DNA of 56,955 nt from Acidobacteriota bacterium (GTDB lineage Bacteria; Actinomycetota; Acidimicrobiia; Spongiisociales; UBA5794): the NCBI GenBank assembly GCA_022562055.1, contig JADFQA010000021.1:1-56955 (forward strand). The letters run 5' to 3'. Shown one piece after another: positions 1,574 to 47,268 of the stretch (position 1 is its first letter; each line of letters begins with the position of its first letter). Under the pieces are notes generated by a model that was not told the DNA's origin, made no database searches, and saw only the letters and a program-made list of their open reading frames with translations. Both the position numbers and the translations under genes were made by a program.

Positions 1574-1657
1574 GGGCGAGTGGCGGAATTGGTAGACGCG
1601 CAGGATTCAGGTTCCTGTGAGGTAACACTCGTGGGGGTTCAAGTCCCCCTTCGCCCA
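1574..1657 (+). tRNA. tRNA-Leu (anticodon CAG)
   Basis: GGGCGAG at the 5' end pairs with TTCGCCC at the 3' end (last pair G-T). The anticodon arm is CAGGA-TTCAGGT-TCCTG with anticodon CAG. A long variable arm (class II) and a T arm with GGTTCAAGTCC complete the cloverleaf. The discriminator is A. CCA is not encoded. Confidence 0.95.
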
Positions 1658-1784
1658 CACGCGTGTGCGATGTTAGTTCAGCTTTGCTGAACGGTCGCTT
1701 CGACTTTCGCCTCCCCGGTCGGCGCCGGTACTCTCCTTGCTATCGCTATTTCGTGGCGAGACTGAGCGGCAAGTGGAGAAAGAC

Positions 1785-2072
1785 GTGCAGTATCAACTTC
1801 GCGATTACACGATCATGGACGGGATCATGTCCCAATTCGTGGCCGAATGGAAATCTCAAGTCGTCCCCTTGCGAGCGCAAGCCGGCTTCGAGATCGTTAG
1901 TGCGTGGTCGAGTTCGGAGACGGGTCGCTTTGTGTGGATCATCGGCTTCGAAGGAGACTTTGAGGAGGCAGACCGGTTGTATTACGAGTCGCCTGGGCGG
2001 ATCGCTCTATCCCCAGACCCTGCCCGGTTCATCGAGACGACCCGTTCCGAATTCGTGTCGGCGGCACTGTAG
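1785..2072 (+). CDS. NIPSNAP/antibiotic-monooxygenase-like small protein
   Basis: About 95 residues. The pattern VQYQLRDYTIMDG at the N-terminus, then an amphipathic helix (FVAEWKSQVVPLRAQAGF) and strands ending in FVWIIGFEG, fits the small dimeric alpha+beta barrel of NIPSNAP proteins. I chose GTG at 1785 because the conserved first strand begins there and GGAGAAAG lies a few bases upstream. The frame stays open further upstream (to 1737), but that part does not look like protein. Its role is unknown. It stands alone between tRNA-Leu and a permease remnant. Confidence 0.65.
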   Translation: MQYQLRDYTIMDGIMSQFVAEWKSQVVPLRAQAGFEIVSAWSSSETGRFVWIIGFEGDFEEADRLYYESPGRIALSPDPARFIETTRSEFVSAAL

Positions 2073-2111
2073 AACGAGCACCAACCGGGCAAATCTACCC
2101 ACAAAGTCGGC

Positions 2112-2549
2112 GTGTGTCCGACGGTTGAGCGCGCCGTGTGCAGGGGGTGCGTAATGATCTGGACAAGTCTTCGGTCGCAGATCGTTACGGGTGCCGAGGT
2201 GTACTTTGGTGCTGACGGGATGGTCGATTTTCCCGGTTTCACTAACGGGGTAATCGGGTTCACCTTCCTGTTTGTCGACTTTTTCGACACGGCGGGCACG
2301 CTGATCATCATCGGAGCGATGATGATCAGCGGTGCTGCCAAGATCGATTGGTCGGACTATCGGCTGTCAATCCCTGCTTTTCTTGCAATCGTTGGCATGC
2401 CATTCACGTTCTCAATTACCGATGGCATCAGCCTGGGCATCGTGGCACACACGGTGATTACAGCGACGTCAGGTAAACCAAAGGACGTGCACCCGGTGAT
2501 GTACGTGCTCTCGGTCTTGCTCGTGTGGAGGTTCTTCGTTCTCGGATAG
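2112..2549 (+). pseudogene. Collapsed AzgA-type purine permease remnant
   Basis: The readable part holds two pieces of an AzgA/NCS2-like adenine/guanine permease joined together. The first is the conserved mid-protein helix with FLFVDFFDTAGTL. The second is the C-terminal region with GAMMISGAAKIDWSDY, MPFTFSITDGISLGI and a last helix VHPVMYVLSVLLVWRFF. In intact proteins of roughly 450 residues these parts are about 100 residues apart, and the N-terminal half is absent here. The joint falls on a perfect 12-bp inverted repeat at 2301-2329. The neighbour on the other strand is adenine deaminase, the natural partner of such a permease. It should not be a working transporter. Confidence 0.75.
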
Positions 2550-2564
2550 CTCCATCGCGCTCTT

Positions 2565-2594
2565 GGAGAGGGTGGACAGTTGTCCATCCTCTCC
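2565..2594. terminator. Hairpin between convergent genes
   Basis: A 13-bp stem (GGAGAGGGTGGAC at 2565-2577 with its partner at 2582-2594, one G-T pair) closes a four-base loop. It sits between the converging permease remnant and adenine deaminase, so it can end transcripts from both sides. No clear T-run follows. Confidence 0.55.
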
Positions 2595-2610
2595 AGCGCG
2601 CCGCCTTCGT

Positions 2611-3603
2611 TTACGCGATGTAGCTGTTGAGTTCGGCGATTAACACGGCCTTCTCGGCTTGATCGAGGAAGGTTGCCTCGATGGAGTTTCTGGCCAGGAG
2701 CGCGAGGTCATCTCGGTCGAGGTCCAAGGCTTTTGCTATTGCAAGGTAGTTGTCGAGCACATATCCCCCGAAGTAGGACGGGTCGTCAGAGTTGACTGTC
2801 ACTTTGACACCCTTATCGAGCAGGTCCTTGAGGTTGTGATCACGAAGGTCGGGGAACACCTGGAGTTTCTGATTCGACAGCGGGCACATCGTGAGTGGAA
2901 TCGCTTCTCGTACGAGTCGATCAATGAGGCCGGGGTCTTCCGCTGCGCGGATGCCGTGGTCAATTCGTTCAACGCGCAACACGTCAAGCGCGGAACGCAC
3001 ATAGGCGGCGGGGCCTTCCTCTCCCGCGTGTGCAACGAGCCTTAAACCGGTAGATGCGGCCTCGCGGTAGGCATCGACGAACAACTCAGGGGGATTGCCG
3101 ACTTCCCCTGAATCGAGCCCCACAGCCTGAAACTTGTCTCGATACGGCAGCGCTTCGCGCAGTGTCTCCACCGCGGCGGCCGGGGGTAGGTGACGGAGGA
3201 AACACAGAATGAGCGAAGTCGAAATGCGATCCTCGTACTCCCTTTGGGCCGTAGCCAGCCCGCCGATCACCGTTTCCATCGGGATGTCGCGCGATGTGTG
3301 CGTCTGCGGGTCGAAAAAGATCTCGGCCCTGCGGACACCGTCACCGATTGCTCGATCAAGGTAGGCAGCCATGAGATCTCGAAAATCGTCGTGAGTCACG
3401 AGTACCGATGCACCGGCGTAGTAGATGTCGAGGAAACTCTGGAGGTCGGTGAATTCGTAGGCAGAGCGTATCTCGTCGACGCTGGCGAACGGGATGTCGA
3501 TGCCGTTCCTGGCGGCGAGCGAGAACATCATTTCCGGCTCAAGGGTGCCTTCGATGTGGAGGTGTAACTCCGCCTTGGGGAGCCCCCTTACGAATGCTTC
3601 CAT
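2611..3603 (-). CDS. Adenine deaminase (adenosine deaminase-like superfamily)
   Basis: This enzyme should deaminate adenine to hypoxanthine in the cytoplasm. Zinc and catalytic motifs of the ADA fold are present: HLHIEG (residues 14-19), HAGEEG (His192, Glu195), His216 in DHGI, and SDDP (Asp273, Asp274). The forms HIEGTLEPE, LDSGEVGNPP and NSDDPSYFGGY are those I associate with the adenine-specific branch rather than with true adenosine deaminase. I chose ATG at 3603 because AAGGA lies nine bases upstream and the conserved region begins there; a TTG at 3681 would add 26 unconserved residues. It follows the CoA ligase gene on the same strand. A dead purine permease lies next to it. Confidence 0.85.
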   Translation of the reverse strand: MEAFVRGLPKAELHLHIEGTLEPEMMFSLAARNGIDIPFASVDEIRSAYEFTDLQSFLDIYYAGASVLVTHDDFRDLMAAYLDRAIGDGVRRAEIFFDPQTHTSRDIPMETVIGGLATAQREYEDRISTSLILCFLRHLPPAAAVETLREALPYRDKFQAVGLDSGEVGNPPELFVDAYREAASTGLRLVAHAGEEGPAAYVRSALDVLRVERIDHGIRAAEDPGLIDRLVREAIPLTMCPLSNQKLQVFPDLRDHNLKDLLDKGVKVTVNSDDPSYFGGYVLDNYLAIAKALDLDRDDLALLARNSIEATFLDQAEKAVLIAELNSYIA

Positions 3604-3677
3604 TCTTGGTCCTTCCGGCTCCGCTGACCCGAGGTTAGGGCTGCGCTCCCTCTTTTCGCGACCGGTCGGCTTGTAGC

Positions 3678-4973
3678 TCAATGCCGTTTGTCGATGACAC
3701 GCTGAGCCTTGCCCTGGGACCGCGGAATAGAGCCGACATCGCCGACGGCGACGGCGGTCGAGATGCCCACATATGACTTTATGTAGCGTTGCAACTCCGC
3801 GGCTATCTGCTCACGTGTCTCGTCGCCCATGTCTATCGCCTGCGGGCGTAGTTCTACAAGCACACGCAGGGCGTCGAGGTTGGAGTCCCGGGTTACCTCG
3901 ATTTGGTAGTGCGGAGCTAGCGCCTTCACTCTCAATACCTGTTCCTCAATCTGTGTGGGAAAGACGTTGACGCCTCTGATGATCAACATGTCATCGCTAC
4001 GTCCCGTGATCTTGTCCATCCGTCTCATCGTGCGTGCCGTTCCCGGCAGTAGCCGCGTCAGGTCTCGGGTGCGGTACCGGATGATCGGGAACGCCTCCTT
4101 GGTCAGCGATGTGAACACCAGCTCGCCGTGGTTGCCGTCCGCGAGCGTTGCACTCGTCTCCGGGTCGACAATCTCGGGGTAGAAGTGATCCTCCCAGATT
4201 GTCGGTCCGTCCTTGGTCTCAAGGCACTCCTGTGCGACACCGGGGCCGATGACCTCGGAGAGTCCGTACAAGTCCACTGCGTCGATCCCGAGCCTATGCT
4301 CGATCTCGTCACGCATCGCGTTGGTCCAGGGTTCGGCGCCAAAGATGCCGATCTCCAGAGAGCACTTGGCTGGGTCGAGTCCCTGGCGCTCGAATTCATC
4401 GGCAAGATTCAGACAGTAGGACGGAGTGACCATGATGATGCGTGGCTTGAGGTCTTCGATCAGTTGAACCTGTCGTCCGGTTTGTCCGCCGGACACCGGG
4501 ATCACCGTGCATCCAAGGAGTTCCGCTCCGTAATGGGCGCCGAGTCCACCAGTAAACAACCCGTAGCCATAAGCAACGTGGCAGATGTCTCCACGATTTC
4601 CGCCAGCGGCACGGATCGATCTGGCAACCACGGCGGACCACATGTCGATGTCGTTCTTGGTGTATCCGACGACCGTTGGCTTGCCGGTCGTGCCGCTCGA
4701 CGCATGGATACGCACGATTTGGTCACGCGGAACCGCAGACATCCCGAAGGGGTAATTGTCGCGAAGGTCCGCCTTGGTGGTAAAGGGAAAGTTGGCGAGG
4801 TCGGTGAGCGACTCCACGTCGTTCGGATGGACACCCGCAGCGTCGAAGCTGTTGCGATAGAAAGCAACGTTGTCGTACGCATGGTGCAGAGTCCACCGCA
4901 GACGTCGGAGCTGCAGCGATGAAAGCTCATCGCTGCTTGCGGTTTCGATTGGCTCCAACCCTGTGGTTCTCAT
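3678..4973 (-). CDS. paaK: Phenylacetate-CoA ligase (PaaK-type adenylate-forming enzyme)
   Basis: The 431-residue protein has the ATP-binding loop SSGTTGKPTVVGYT near residue 93, the adenylation motif LYGLSEVIGPGVAQE, and the hinge/C-terminal motif ITGRSDDMLIIRGVNVFPTQIEE. This set and length are typical of PaaK, which makes phenylacetyl-CoA from phenylacetate, ATP and CoA. No other paa ring-cleavage gene is in view, so the true acid could be another aryl acetate. It lies just upstream of adenine deaminase on the same strand and may be cotranscribed with it. GGTGGAG precedes the start. Confidence 0.88.
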   Translation of the reverse strand: MRTTGLEPIETASSDELSSLQLRRLRWTLHHAYDNVAFYRNSFDAAGVHPNDVESLTDLANFPFTTKADLRDNYPFGMSAVPRDQIVRIHASSGTTGKPTVVGYTKNDIDMWSAVVARSIRAAGGNRGDICHVAYGYGLFTGGLGAHYGAELLGCTVIPVSGGQTGRQVQLIEDLKPRIIMVTPSYCLNLADEFERQGLDPAKCSLEIGIFGAEPWTNAMRDEIEHRLGIDAVDLYGLSEVIGPGVAQECLETKDGPTIWEDHFYPEIVDPETSATLADGNHGELVFTSLTKEAFPIIRYRTRDLTRLLPGTARTMRRMDKITGRSDDMLIIRGVNVFPTQIEEQVLRVKALAPHYQIEVTRDSNLDALRVLVELRPQAIDMGDETREQIAAELQRYIKSYVGISTAVAVGDVGSIPRSQGKAQRVIDKRH

Positions 4974-8609: not shown

Positions 8610-8701
8610 ACGCTTCCCTGCCAAAGTTGTAACGGCAGGGGTTATGTGCGCCCCCGCCGTCGAACGTGGATCACCCGGCGCTTTCCGAAATACACAGCTC
8701 G

Positions 8702-8800
8702 CATTGAGCGCTCCCGCCACACCCGAGACTGACCCGCTTAGAGCTGCTTCCTTCCGGACCTGACCCAATTCACGACGCCTCGCCGCGGCGGGACCCAATG
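8702..8800 (-). ncRNA. ffs: SRP RNA (small bacterial 4.5S type)
   Basis: Read on the reverse strand, the sequence contains the invariant domain IV core GGTCAGGTCCGGAAGGAAGC (complement of about 8743-8762). The ends pair: CATTGGG with CTCAATG, then TCCCGCC (8787-8793) with GGCGGGA (8712-8718), giving one long hairpin of about 99 nt. This RNA binds Ffh to form the signal recognition particle. A weak promoter (TTGTTC and CATAGT, 16 bases apart) lies just upstream on the same strand. Confidence 0.93.
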
Positions 8801-9126
8801 TTCAACACTATGTGGTTCGGTGCTGCCCGAACAACCACGCCCTCGGGCGGGGATTCGGCCTCGCATGAAGAGGATTTCGAGAAGAGGGCACCCCTAGCGC
8901 CCCGCCTAGCACATGGATGCATGGTAGGTGAAGCCGGAAGCAGTGTGGAATCGCGAGTGCCGCCAAACAAAGGTCTTTCCGTCCGCACACTGCTTTGCGA
9001 TCGGGACCGGTTTTCTACTCGGTCGAGGGGTGACACCTGTCAAGGCTTTCCGTCTGGGTGTGTCGAGGCCTCCGCGGTGCGTCACCTGCATCGCGGTAAC
9101 CTCAGAACTGACAGGTCGGAGCGAGC
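8801..9126. other. Intergenic stretch without a recognised gene
   Basis: Apart from the SRP RNA promoter at its left end and the ribosome site GGAG just before the thioesterase, I see nothing I can name. Open frames exist on both strands, but their translations show no family pattern. Confidence 0.4.
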
Positions 9127-13015: not shown

Positions 13016-13098
13016 ATGTCCAGCGCCTGCCGAAAGCTGCCAGCTATCGGCAGGCTCTCGCTGCGGCGAGAGTTCTTTGCGGAACGCAAACTATTTTG

Positions 13099-13188
13099 CG
13101 GAGAGAGTGGGATTTGAACCCACGGAACTGAAAATAACAGCTCAACAGTTTTCGAGACTGCCGCCTTCGTCCACTCGGCCATCTCTCC
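13099..13188 (-). tRNA. tRNA-Ser (anticodon CGA)
   Basis: GGAGAGA pairs with TCTCTCC, and the discriminator is G. The anticodon loop is CTCGAAA with anticodon CGA between GCAGT and ACTGT. A long variable arm and the T loop TTCAAAT are present. CCA is not encoded. Confidence 0.95.
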
Positions 13189-13260
13189 AGGTTTGGCCAT
13201 GTGTCATCGCGACGACGTGGCCTAGGAGCAGGATGATAGTTGGTGCCGAGCCGAACTCGG

Positions 13261-13713
13261 CTATCTGTGCGCCTCGAAGAAGGTAGTCAGAATTGCCGCG
13301 CACCGATCTTCCAGGACTCCCGCTTCGAGCTGGATCAAATGGTTGAGACGTTCGTCGCGTGGGATGTTGAACAGGCTCCATACGGCGCCAGCCTTGGTAT
13401 CGGTTGCCCCGTAGACAATGCGGTCCACACGAGCCCACACTGCGGCCATTGCACACATCGCACACGGTTCCAGCGTCACGACGAGAGTATGTCCGGTGAG
13501 TCGCCAGTTGCCCAGCTCTCGCGACCTCTGCGAGATGACGAGTATTTCGGCGTGCGCAGTTGCGTCGCCCAGTTGCTCTCGGCGATTGTGGTCGCTCGCT
13601 ACGATCTTGCCGTCGCGGTCGAGCAGCACAGCGCCGACGGGAACGTCTTCGTGGTCCGCTGCAGCTTGGGCTTCGATAAGCGCCGATTCCATTACCGTGT
13701 TCCAAAGATCCAT
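13261..13713 (-). CDS. tadA: tRNA-specific adenosine-34 deaminase
   Basis: The 150-residue protein has the zinc deaminase motifs HAE (in ATAHAEIL, about residue 55) and PCAMC (about residues 86-90), with the TadA-specific NRREQLGDATAHAE and LEPCAMCAMA contexts. It converts A34 to inosine in tRNA-Arg(ACG); that tRNA is encoded in this window at 50981. AGGTGA precedes the ATG. It sits among three serine tRNA genes. Confidence 0.92.
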   Translation of the reverse strand: MDLWNTVMESALIEAQAAADHEDVPVGAVLLDRDGKIVASDHNRREQLGDATAHAEILVISQRSRELGNWRLTGHTLVVTLEPCAMCAMAAVWARVDRIVYGATDTKAGAVWSLFNIPRDERLNHLIQLEAGVLEDRCAAILTTFFEAHR

Positions 13714-13753
13714 AAATCACCTAAGTGCGGAAGGGTTAATATGGCACACCTCC

Positions 13754-13842
13754 GGAGGGGTCGCATAGTCCGGCCGAGTGCGCACGCTTGGAAAGCGTGT
13801 AGGCGGGTAACCGTCTCGAGGGTTCGAATCCCTCTCCCTCCG
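13754..13842 (+). tRNA. tRNA-Ser (anticodon GGA)
   Basis: GGAGGGG pairs with TCCCTCC. The anticodon stem-loop is CACGC-TTGGAAA-GCGTG. A class II variable arm and the T arm GGTTCGAATCC follow. Discriminator G; no encoded CCA. Confidence 0.95.
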
Positions 13843-13914
13843 CAGTCTCGATACCGATAGGTGACGAGTCCGTTGTTCCTTTCGGGACGATGCGCCGCGT
13901 TGCGGCAAGAGCTT

Positions 13915-14001
13915 GGAGGGATAGCCAAGCGGACGAAGGCAACAGTCTTGAAAACTGTCGAGCCCTTATGGGTTCCGTGGGTTCGAATCCCACTCCCTCC
14001 G
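13915..14001 (+). tRNA. tRNA-Ser (anticodon TGA)
   Basis: GGAGGGA pairs with TCCCTCC. The anticodon loop is CTTGAAA with anticodon TGA. A long variable arm and the T loop TTCGAAT are present. Discriminator G. It lies about 70 bases after tRNA-Ser(GGA) and may share its transcript. Confidence 0.95.
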
Positions 14002-14158
14002 CAAAACCACAGGGCCGCCGCGATGCGCGAGTTCGCACGGTCTGGGTCGCGCAGTGAGGTGCTTCACGGAGGGACCCATATTTGGTTGCACTACGCGTTT
14101 TTTCCGACTTCTCTGAGTGGTCGGCGTCAAGGTGTGGAAGTCGAAAAAGAAGGTTTGT

Positions 14159-15149: not shown

Positions 15150-15180
15150 TTGTGGGCGCAACTCCATGTTGCGCCCACAA
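15150..15180. terminator. Bidirectional hairpin between convergent genes
   Basis: A perfect 13-bp stem (TTGTGGGCGCAAC at 15150-15162 with its complement at 15168-15180) encloses a five-base loop. It lies between the converging esterase and patatin genes. No long T-run is present. Confidence 0.6.
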
Positions 15181-32337: not shown

Positions 32338-32371
32338 TCATCAGGTAATCCGACTATCGACAAGCCAGTCC

Positions 32372-32400
32372 GGGGGTGGGAAGCGAGACTTCCCACCCCC
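32372..32400 (+). terminator. Intra-operon hairpin after the binding-protein gene
   Basis: GGGGGTGGGAAG (32372-32383) pairs perfectly with 32389-32400 around the loop CGAGA. No T-run follows, so this is more likely a partial terminator or a 3' stabiliser than a full stop. Confidence 0.6.
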
Positions 32401-32467
32401 GCACTCGGCGATCCTCCCCGCAGATCGATGCGGGCACCCCAAAGGAAGAGAGGGAAGTGGCCGATCT

Positions 32468-36328: not shown

Positions 36329-37795
36329 ATGAGTTGGATGCAATCTCTAAGCGATGCGTACCGCGATGCACGCGACCGCTACCCAGACGAGAAGCTCCTC
36401 CTGGTGCTCGATATTGACGGGACCATTAGCGACATGCGAGCGGCCGTGCTTTCGGTCTTGCAATCGTACGACCGCGTACACGGCAGCGACCACTTCACTC
36501 TTCTGCAAGAGACCGACATCGATGTACACGAAAACCACGTTCCTCGACTACTCAAGAGATTGGGAATCGCAGATCCGGATCTTGAGTCCGTGATGGACTG
36601 GTACTTACAGCAGCGGTGGTTGGACGACACGGTTGTCGACACACACCGTCCATTTCCGGGTGTCATGCCGATGATCCGGTGGTTCCAGATGCAGCCCAAC
36701 ACGAAGATCGGTCTGCTGACCGGTAGACCCGAGGTTTTGCGCGGTGCGACTCTTCGTTCGTTGAACAATATGGGTGACCGCCATGCCGTGGTCTTCGACG
36801 ATGACCTGCTGCTCATGAACCCGGGGGAGTGGGGCGAGAACATCGCCGAATCCAAGGCTGCGGGGATCGGGCGTTTCCGCGAGATGGGGTACCGAGTGTT
36901 TGCGGTTATCGATAACGAGCCGGACATCCTTGTATCGCTTGCCAACGACTTTGACGGAGAGCATATTCGCCTGCTTCACGCTGATACGATTTTCGAGTCG
37001 GACAAGTCAGCGTTGCCGGACACGGTCGTCTCCGGTCGTGGCTATCAGCTGGAGGAGCTCGTTCCCGGAATTGACCGGCTCTCGGAAGCGGTGCAGCTCG
37101 TTTGGCACGGAGTCAACGACCCGGCGAATCTGGAAATGTTCTTAACCTCCGGGGTTGATTGGGCTGAGATAGACATTCAAGAGGATCCGTCGGGCAAGCT
37201 CATGTTGCGTCATGATGCATTTGCGACAACGCCCCTGGTTGAGAACGAAGCACGACTCATGTACCTCGACACGATGGAAGAGTTGGCGGCGCGCGGCGCA
37301 AGCATCAAGCTCGATATCAAAGGCGGCGTGGACATCCTTGATCGTGTTTTGAAGTCCGTGCAGTCGCTGCAGATTCCTGACGATCGCCTCTGGTTCAACG
37401 GTGACATCGAGGGGATATGCGAGGAGGGGTTCCGCACCATCCGCGATCTTCACCCTGGATCCATCATTCAGTGTCCCATTGGATGGTTGCGACCCTTGCT
37501 AGGTGCGGCGCCTAGCGAAGCGCATCGAATTCTCGACACTCTCGCCGACTGGGGTATGAACCGCTATTCCGTGGACTGGTCGGCAGGCATGGCGCGCACA
37601 ACATTCAAACAATTGACCGGATGGGGTTTCGAAGTCAACTTTTATGGGGTGTTCGACTTGGAGAGCTTTCTTGAGGCGGCGGTGCTGTCGCCGTCGTCGG
37701 TAACCGTCGACTTCAACTTTCCGACGTGGGGTTACTACGGTCGTGGTTCTGGCCAAGGTGGCAAGTGGTTCACGTACCCGGACGCATCTGACTGA
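36329..37795 (+). CDS. Fusion of HAD phosphatase with a GDPD/FAM151 (menorin)-like domain
   Basis: The 488-residue protein has two parts. The N-terminal part is a HAD phosphatase: DIDGT at residues 28-32, LTGRPE near 130 and VIDNEPD near 195. The C-terminal part (from about 255) begins VQLVWHGVNDPANLEMFL, followed by GVDWAEIDIQEDPSGKLMLRHDAF. This recalls FAM151/menorin domains, relatives of GDPDs with the Glu-Asp...His arrangement. One chain could thus cleave a phosphodiester and remove the phosphate. It ends the importer operon and overlaps the convergent acyltransferase by 26 bases. Confidence 0.75.
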   Translation: MSWMQSLSDAYRDARDRYPDEKLLLVLDIDGTISDMRAAVLSVLQSYDRVHGSDHFTLLQETDIDVHENHVPRLLKRLGIADPDLESVMDWYLQQRWLDDTVVDTHRPFPGVMPMIRWFQMQPNTKIGLLTGRPEVLRGATLRSLNNMGDRHAVVFDDDLLLMNPGEWGENIAESKAAGIGRFREMGYRVFAVIDNEPDILVSLANDFDGEHIRLLHADTIFESDKSALPDTVVSGRGYQLEELVPGIDRLSEAVQLVWHGVNDPANLEMFLTSGVDWAEIDIQEDPSGKLMLRHDAFATTPLVENEARLMYLDTMEELAARGASIKLDIKGGVDILDRVLKSVQSLQIPDDRLWFNGDIEGICEEGFRTIRDLHPGSIIQCPIGWLRPLLGAAPSEAHRILDTLADWGMNRYSVDWSAGMARTTFKQLTGWGFEVNFYGVFDLESFLEAAVLSPSSVTVDFNFPTWGYYGRGSGQGGKWFTYPDASD

Positions 37796-47171: not shown

Positions 47172-47178
47172 TTTGTTG

Positions 47179-47268
47179 CGGAGAGAGAGGGATTTGAACC
47201 CTCGAGGAGGTTTAACACCCCCTACTCGCTTAGCAGGCGAGCGCCTTCGTCCACTCGGCCACCTCTCC
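47179..47268 (-). tRNA. tRNA-Ser (anticodon GCT)
   Basis: GGAGAGG pairs with TCTCTCC (one G-T). The anticodon arm is CTCGC-CTGCTAA-GCGAG with anticodon GCT. A long variable arm and the T arm GGTTCAAATCC are present. Discriminator G; no encoded CCA. Confidence 0.95.

Follow-up and report, generated by a model that had tools for sequence, protein, structure and literature searches.

Within the 56,955-nt stretch of DNA analysed here (the window), a short open frame beside a deaminase gene resembles a purine permease with large parts missing, and a perfect hairpin lies where the similarity leaps from the middle of the protein to its C-terminal region. The locus raises the question of how the permease gene came to be reduced, and whether, as a preliminary description of the sequence had proposed, the hairpin drove the deletion. 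The features that bear on this question are listed in Table 1.

Table 1. Features of the permease locus and its surroundings (positions in the window)
Feature	Position	Strand	Remarks
tRNA-Leu(CAG)	1574..1658	+	borders variable stretch
Small NIPSNAP-like ORF	1737..2072	+	PF07978 21.3 bits, just below cut-off 22.3
AzgA (NCS2/AZG) permease remnant	2147..2549	+	match to AZG1 structures; 76-78% identity to intact G030 C-terminus
Putative AzgA N-terminal leader	2147..2188	+	reads VRNDLDKSSVADRY; frame differs from remainder of remnant
Joint A	2180..2188	+	out-of-frame deletion, about 615-627 nt; inferred shared word GATCGTTAC
Joint B	2259..2265	+	in-frame 75-nt deletion at TTCACCT (GFT / VFT codons)
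Joint C	2289..2306	+	in-frame 270-nt deletion within imperfect direct repeat TAGTLI / T(A,S)xxLI
Inverted repeat	2299..2331	+	15-nt arms, 3-nt loop; codes LIIIGAMMIS; native to gene
Codons ATC AGC (I S)	2325..2330	+	M T in 7/7 intact relatives; palindrome lengthened
Adenosine deaminase by family model, intact	2611..3681	-	PF00962 E 3.6e-87; NF006850 502.9 bits vs cut-off 419

The open frame at 2112-2549 on the forward strand has 145 residues, and its earliest in-frame ATG is at 2154. In a PDB sequence search, residues 61-116 of this frame matched AZG1 structures at E 1e-7 and AZG2 at 4e-4; moreover, the remnant matched the intact permease of the relative G030, itself a PF00860 protein at 157 bits, at E 5e-40. 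By sequence homology to AZG proteins, the frame is thus of the AzgA purine permease type. It shares the C-terminal block and the FFDTAGT motif with the AzgA/AZG adenine-guanine permeases (NCS2 superfamily, PF00860); in contrast to these, it has lost about 960 nt from a length of about 1.35-1.4 kb and, with its three deletions, has no match to PF00860 (Xan_ur_permease) as a full-length transporter would. PF00860 was found nowhere in the same genome at E up to 1 (assembly of 2.93 Mb, 97% complete), and other permease pieces were not found elsewhere in this assembly at E up to 10. Adenine/guanine transport by the remnant has presumably been lost, and uptake is not expected.

The remnant frame matched 15 of the 60 genomes in the relatives set at E 0.001 (own genome counted), while matches at E 1e-20 among 138 genomes of the order came from seven other genomes, in open frames of 430-578 residues; the homolog searches used cut-offs of 1e-20, 1e-5 and, with a full-length query, 1e-100. 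The preliminary description had suggested looking for the intact gene in relatives and aligning the remnant with full AzgA proteins to fix the joint. Seven intact close relatives were found, i.e. G030 (a 490-residue frame), G056, G051, G037, G117, G131 and G005, the last with its C-terminus cut by a contig end. Compared with these genes, the remnant has three deletions of about 620 nt, 75 nt and 270 nt. Residues 253-282, 305-320 and 405-490 of G030 align to 2178-2267, 2259-2306 and 2289-2546 of the window, respectively, and residues 283-304 and 321-404 are absent between these blocks. The middle block is weak on its own (E 0.08), yet it is 100% identical and keeps its place in the order, and an alignment of five intact relatives together with Bacillus atrophaeus agrees with the three-block layout. 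The lost parts are most of the N-terminal half, a stretch directly before FTFLFVDFFDTAGT, and the stretch from that motif to the C-terminal block. Thus, the proposed deletion of a purine permease is borne out, both by the homology to AZG proteins and by the missing blocks, as is the leap from FFDTAGTL to the C-terminal block at LIIIGAMM, which does coincide with an inverted repeat; however, two further joints (A and B) had been overlooked.

Joint A directly follows an apparent AzgA N-terminus, NDLDKSSVADRY. In a comparison with the N-termini of five of the seven relatives (G131 and G117 were not picked up by the script), the last 12 residues of this leader were, by mean BLOSUM score, unmatched by any other of the 86,213 12-mers of the window; by best single score, 24 of the 86,213, the leader included, reach its level. 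The support for reading the leader as the N-terminus of AzgA is good but not proof. The spacing from the leader to the first block was 615-627 nt in the five of six intact genes with both motifs found (measured without G117; the right-hand motif was not found in G131), and because joint A shifts the frame the true loss must differ from this figure by one or two bases. At the joint itself, the letters of the window fit both flanks over GATCGTTAC, which points to a repeat shared by the two sites.

The other two deletions are of constant size. At joint B, 75 nt between GFT and FTFLF are missing relative to 7/7 intact relatives, and the two sites in these genes have 5-8 of 9 nt in common, reading in the best cases GGGTTCACC at the left site and GTNTTCACC at the right one. 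At joint C, 270 nt are missing relative to 7/7 relatives, and 9-14 of 18 nt are common to both sites, with 12 or more in five of the seven. In these five genes, a level of at least 12/18 is reached by 0.012-0.24% of in-frame offset pairs from the same gene; the 9/18 seen in G030 and G005 is reached by 6.6-7.8% of pairs and is hence unremarkable. Judged from the relatives, therefore, short and partly imperfect direct repeats lie at each deletion, and such repeats are present at the homologous sites in most, not all, of these genes. The words were taken from relatives with about 65-78% identity in the C-terminal part, which stand in for the intact ancestor of this gene.

The hairpin had been described as a perfect 12-bp inverted repeat at 2301-2329. 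It is real and in fact longer, with its 15-nt arms starting at 2299 and ending at 2331, and no perfect hairpin (loop 3-8) in the window is stronger. In 40 first-order Markov simulations of the window, perfect hairpins with arms of at least 12 nt occurred at a mean of 0.075, and arms of 15 nt occurred in none; the hairpin exceeds chance by composition. Perfect hairpins with arms of 13 nt and loops of 5 nt also occur at 15150-15180 and 32371-32401, both between ORFs of at least 250 residues, and an imperfect 15-nt hairpin (93%) is located at 2564-2595.

We compared nine distinct stretches recognised by a fixed pattern, i.e. those of the seven relatives, the window and B. atrophaeus. The same codons form perfect 12-nt arms with a 3-nt loop in the intact genes of G051 and G117 (2/7 relatives), 8-nt arms with a loop of 7 in G037 and G131, 6-nt arms in G056 and G005, and 4-nt arms in G030, while the best inverted pair in B. 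atrophaeus lies elsewhere than at the LIIIGAMM codons. The codons behind the hairpin are of the type ATC ATC ATC GGN GCG ATG ATG ATG, encoding the conserved stretch LIIIGAMMM, and the hairpin arises because the ATC repeats before the central GGN GC and the ATG repeats after it are complementary. Four intact genes with arms of 8 or 12 nt do not have the deletion, and the hairpin is thus not tied to the joint. Since it also occurs in intact relatives, it is inherited coding sequence and not a scar; most simply, it would predate the deletion.

These observations bear on the proposal that the palindrome stalled replication and set the end of the deletion. The permease had been said to be deleted exactly at the inverted repeat. 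This holds insofar as the 18-nt range of joint C, which codes TAGTLI, extends over the initial 8 nt of the left arm of the hairpin, itself the strongest perfect one in the window; beyond these 8 nt, the hairpin belongs to downstream coding sequence without interruption. A deletion stimulated by a hairpin classically takes the hairpin away, whereas relatives have this one within their intact gene and the remnant still carries it. Moreover, joint C carries a direct repeat of its own in five of the seven relatives, and joints A and B have similar words with no close hairpin listed at either; a weak 11-nt inverted pair (2129-2139 / 2287-2297, 91%) spans both. In favour of the proposal, deletions in mycobacteria can be provoked by inverted repeats, though by perfect repeats only in the absence of SSA (PMC3519483). 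In total, the evidence does not support a deletion driven by the hairpin, which we consider quite unlikely. More generally, the codons of a conserved protein stretch can by themselves give rise to a striking hairpin where a deletion has its joint, and intact relatives let a scar be told apart from such background.

The arms are longer in the window because two adjacent residues that do not vary among the seven relatives have been replaced, M by I and T by S, and both changes add pairing to the arms; in more distant homologs, the residues at this site vary. Thus, the hairpin was probably sharpened by two substitutions. With the ancestral codons taken from the relatives, this is suggestive of the quasipalindrome template-switch mutation pattern documented in E. 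coli (PMC7202029) and in yeast coding genes (PMC8604942). As in these systems, neighbouring substitutions would have perfected an imperfect inverted repeat; in contrast to them, the event in the window is reconstructed from relatives and not from a direct parent sequence. Should a template switch have occurred, bacteria would offer here a natural case of quasipalindrome mutation within a protein-coding gene; if not, the locus shows nothing beyond ordinary gene decay.

A broader version of this idea is a single complex replication accident, in which serial template switches gave rise to the three microhomology joints as well as both palindrome-completing substitutions, with the palindrome as one switch site. 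All three joints, together with the two-codon change, are confined to about 150 bp (2180-2330) while the surrounding coding sequence is intact, the adjacent substitutions hit residues invariant in 7/7 relatives and both improve pairing, and quasipalindrome template switching is known from the two systems cited above. However, the clustering is partly forced, with about 400 nt of the gene left, each step also occurs singly, and no intermediate strain is known. We regard a single accident as unlikely; if it did happen, complex template-switch rearrangements would have a small-scale counterpart in this bacterial gene.

Joints B and C are in frame, and there is no stop from the ATG at 2154 to the terminal stop. 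Under unselected decay, such an outcome would be expected about once in nine for the two joints, and this counts against the reading of the locus as a pseudogene. It would instead suit a retained membrane protein of 131 residues (ATG 2154 to 2549) whose frame is kept by selection, and by eye the sequence AGGGGG lies six bases 5' of this ATG. The preliminary description had named an intact short permease family with the same architecture in other genomes as the finding that would speak against a deletion. We compared 28 other distinct homologs, drawn from frames of at least 150 residues, and found frames of 430-660 residues. The DTxGT pattern was found in 24 of the 28, located 94-145 residues N-terminal of the C-terminal block compared with 5 in the window, and was not found in four. 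In a repeat search that took frames of at least 40 residues in all 139 loci, apart from the locus in the window itself, the C-terminal block matched frames of 430-660 residues in every case, some of the long frames stopping at contig edges, and the only matching frames of fewer than 400 residues were seven views of the window's own locus. A short permease family with the architecture of the remnant, in size and motif spacing, is rejected within the searched set, and none was found in the 139 loci or the 138 genomes of the order.

The substitution record also bears on a retained protein. In the 62-residue C-terminal block, 34 residues are invariant in the other seven genes and three of these are changed in the window (M to I, T to S and E to D); the same test on each intact gene gave 0-5 changes at otherwise invariant residues. 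The pN/pS of the remnant against five relatives (pairs without G131 and G005) was 0.22-0.27, compared with 0.16-0.37 for the ten pairs among those five; however, pS is near saturation (0.53-0.68), and the ratio therefore says little on the most recent period. Because pN/pS is within the range of the intact genes, the gene was selected for most of its history and its death looks recent; we infer that the pseudogene probably died recently. Third-position GC was 0.63 in the block and 0.70 and 0.72 in the two neighbours, giving no sign of very recent import. A pN/pS that is not raised would agree with a protein under selection, as would the two in-frame joints, but the low value mostly reflects the time before the deletions, joint A is out of frame relative to the old N-terminus, and the architecture occurs in none of the other genomes or loci searched. 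In total, a retained protein is very unlikely.

The joints are known from the assembly alone, a draft genome of 83 contigs, and an assembly or amplification artefact could in principle have produced them. Ordinary assembly overlaps are longer than the joint overlaps of about 6-9 exact nt. Moreover, there are three separate joints, and the assembly does not contain the missing pieces at another place. We consider an artefact highly improbable.

Altogether, with a probability of roughly 80%, the remnant comes from the gene of an AzgA-type purine:cation symporter that recently became a pseudogene through three repeat-mediated deletions. This reading is preferred because the blocks are ordered, the 270- and 75-nt deletions are constant in size against 7/7 relatives and the joints lie at repeated words, and because the hairpin occurs in intact genes and the missing pieces are absent elsewhere in the assembly. 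Each of the three deletions would have occurred between short, partly imperfect direct repeats of about 6-18 nt, with replication slippage or microhomology-mediated deletion as the likely process; the hairpin beside joint C would be old coding sequence that a template switch may have perfected. Three deletions without clear point-mutation decay in a small remnant are somewhat unusual for slow decay. Overall, the locus is mostly routine gene decay.

There are precedents for such deletions. In Haloquadratum walsbyi, repeat-mediated losses bounded by 4-20 bp direct repeats, with one copy left and gene truncation included, are described (PMC3119063) and resemble the joints in the window; there, both states are seen in two near-identical strains, whereas the intact state for the window comes from distant relatives only, and the window differs in having three joints within one gene. 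In Mycobacterium smegmatis, precise deletion between direct repeats is described to proceed unchanged when NHEJ or SSA is lost and to be enhanced when HR is absent (PMC3519483). Judged by titles and the openings of abstracts, a literature search found no reports on deletion at short direct repeats or microhomology in bacterial pseudogenes.

The neighbouring deaminase had been called an adenine deaminase and the intact partner enzyme of the permease. The gene is intact; however, the curated models NF006850 and TIGR01430 both name it adenosine deaminase, the substrate predicted by family model, and the pairing is unproven. Among 29 deaminase loci from 27 of 50 family genomes, only that in the window has a permease within the flank examined (at most 1.5 kb); at the other loci (0/28, some flanks cut by contig ends) none was found. 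Conversely, no deaminase match was found near the intact permeases in the five of seven regions examined (3.5-15 kb). With adjacency not conserved, permease and deaminase are not an established pair. Deaminase-like fragments are also present at contig ends of the same genome (G000:C29:9-764 and G000:C55:9-392), one of them with an internal TAG.

In G002, of the same genus, a glycosyltransferase gene, tRNA-Leu(CAG), the deaminase gene and PaaK are collinear with the window. The gap between the tRNA and the deaminase gene is about 950 nt in the window (1660-2610) and about 120 nt in G002, and neither the NIPSNAP-like ORF nor the permease was found at the matching place in G002; the stretch 1660-2610 is a variable spot that contains both. 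A tRNA-borne island was considered; the end of the tRNA was not found repeated on the far side, and we do not claim an integrative element. In G001, of the same genus and 72% complete, no deaminase match was found, and an insertion in the line of the window and a loss in G002 are therefore inseparable. An Rfam scan of 1450-2700 detected the tRNA only, and no terminator-like site was found in this interval.

The preliminary description had suggested that adenine uptake may now use another route. Three Bmp-family binding proteins in the genome score over the cut-off, while PF02133 transporters were not found in it. Purines may therefore still enter by another route, plausibly through nucleoside uptake by an ABC system.

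Elsewhere in the window, ARAGORN called a tRNA-His at 37611-37705 inside a 488-residue ORF; there is no Rfam tRNA there, and the call is probably false. Three tRNA-Ser genes with different anticodons are clustered at 13098-14002, and a fourth tRNA-Ser is located at 47178-47268. Finally, the reverse strand at 8646-8914 encodes a bacterial large signal recognition particle RNA (Rfam RF01854), matched at 145 bits over the full model length.
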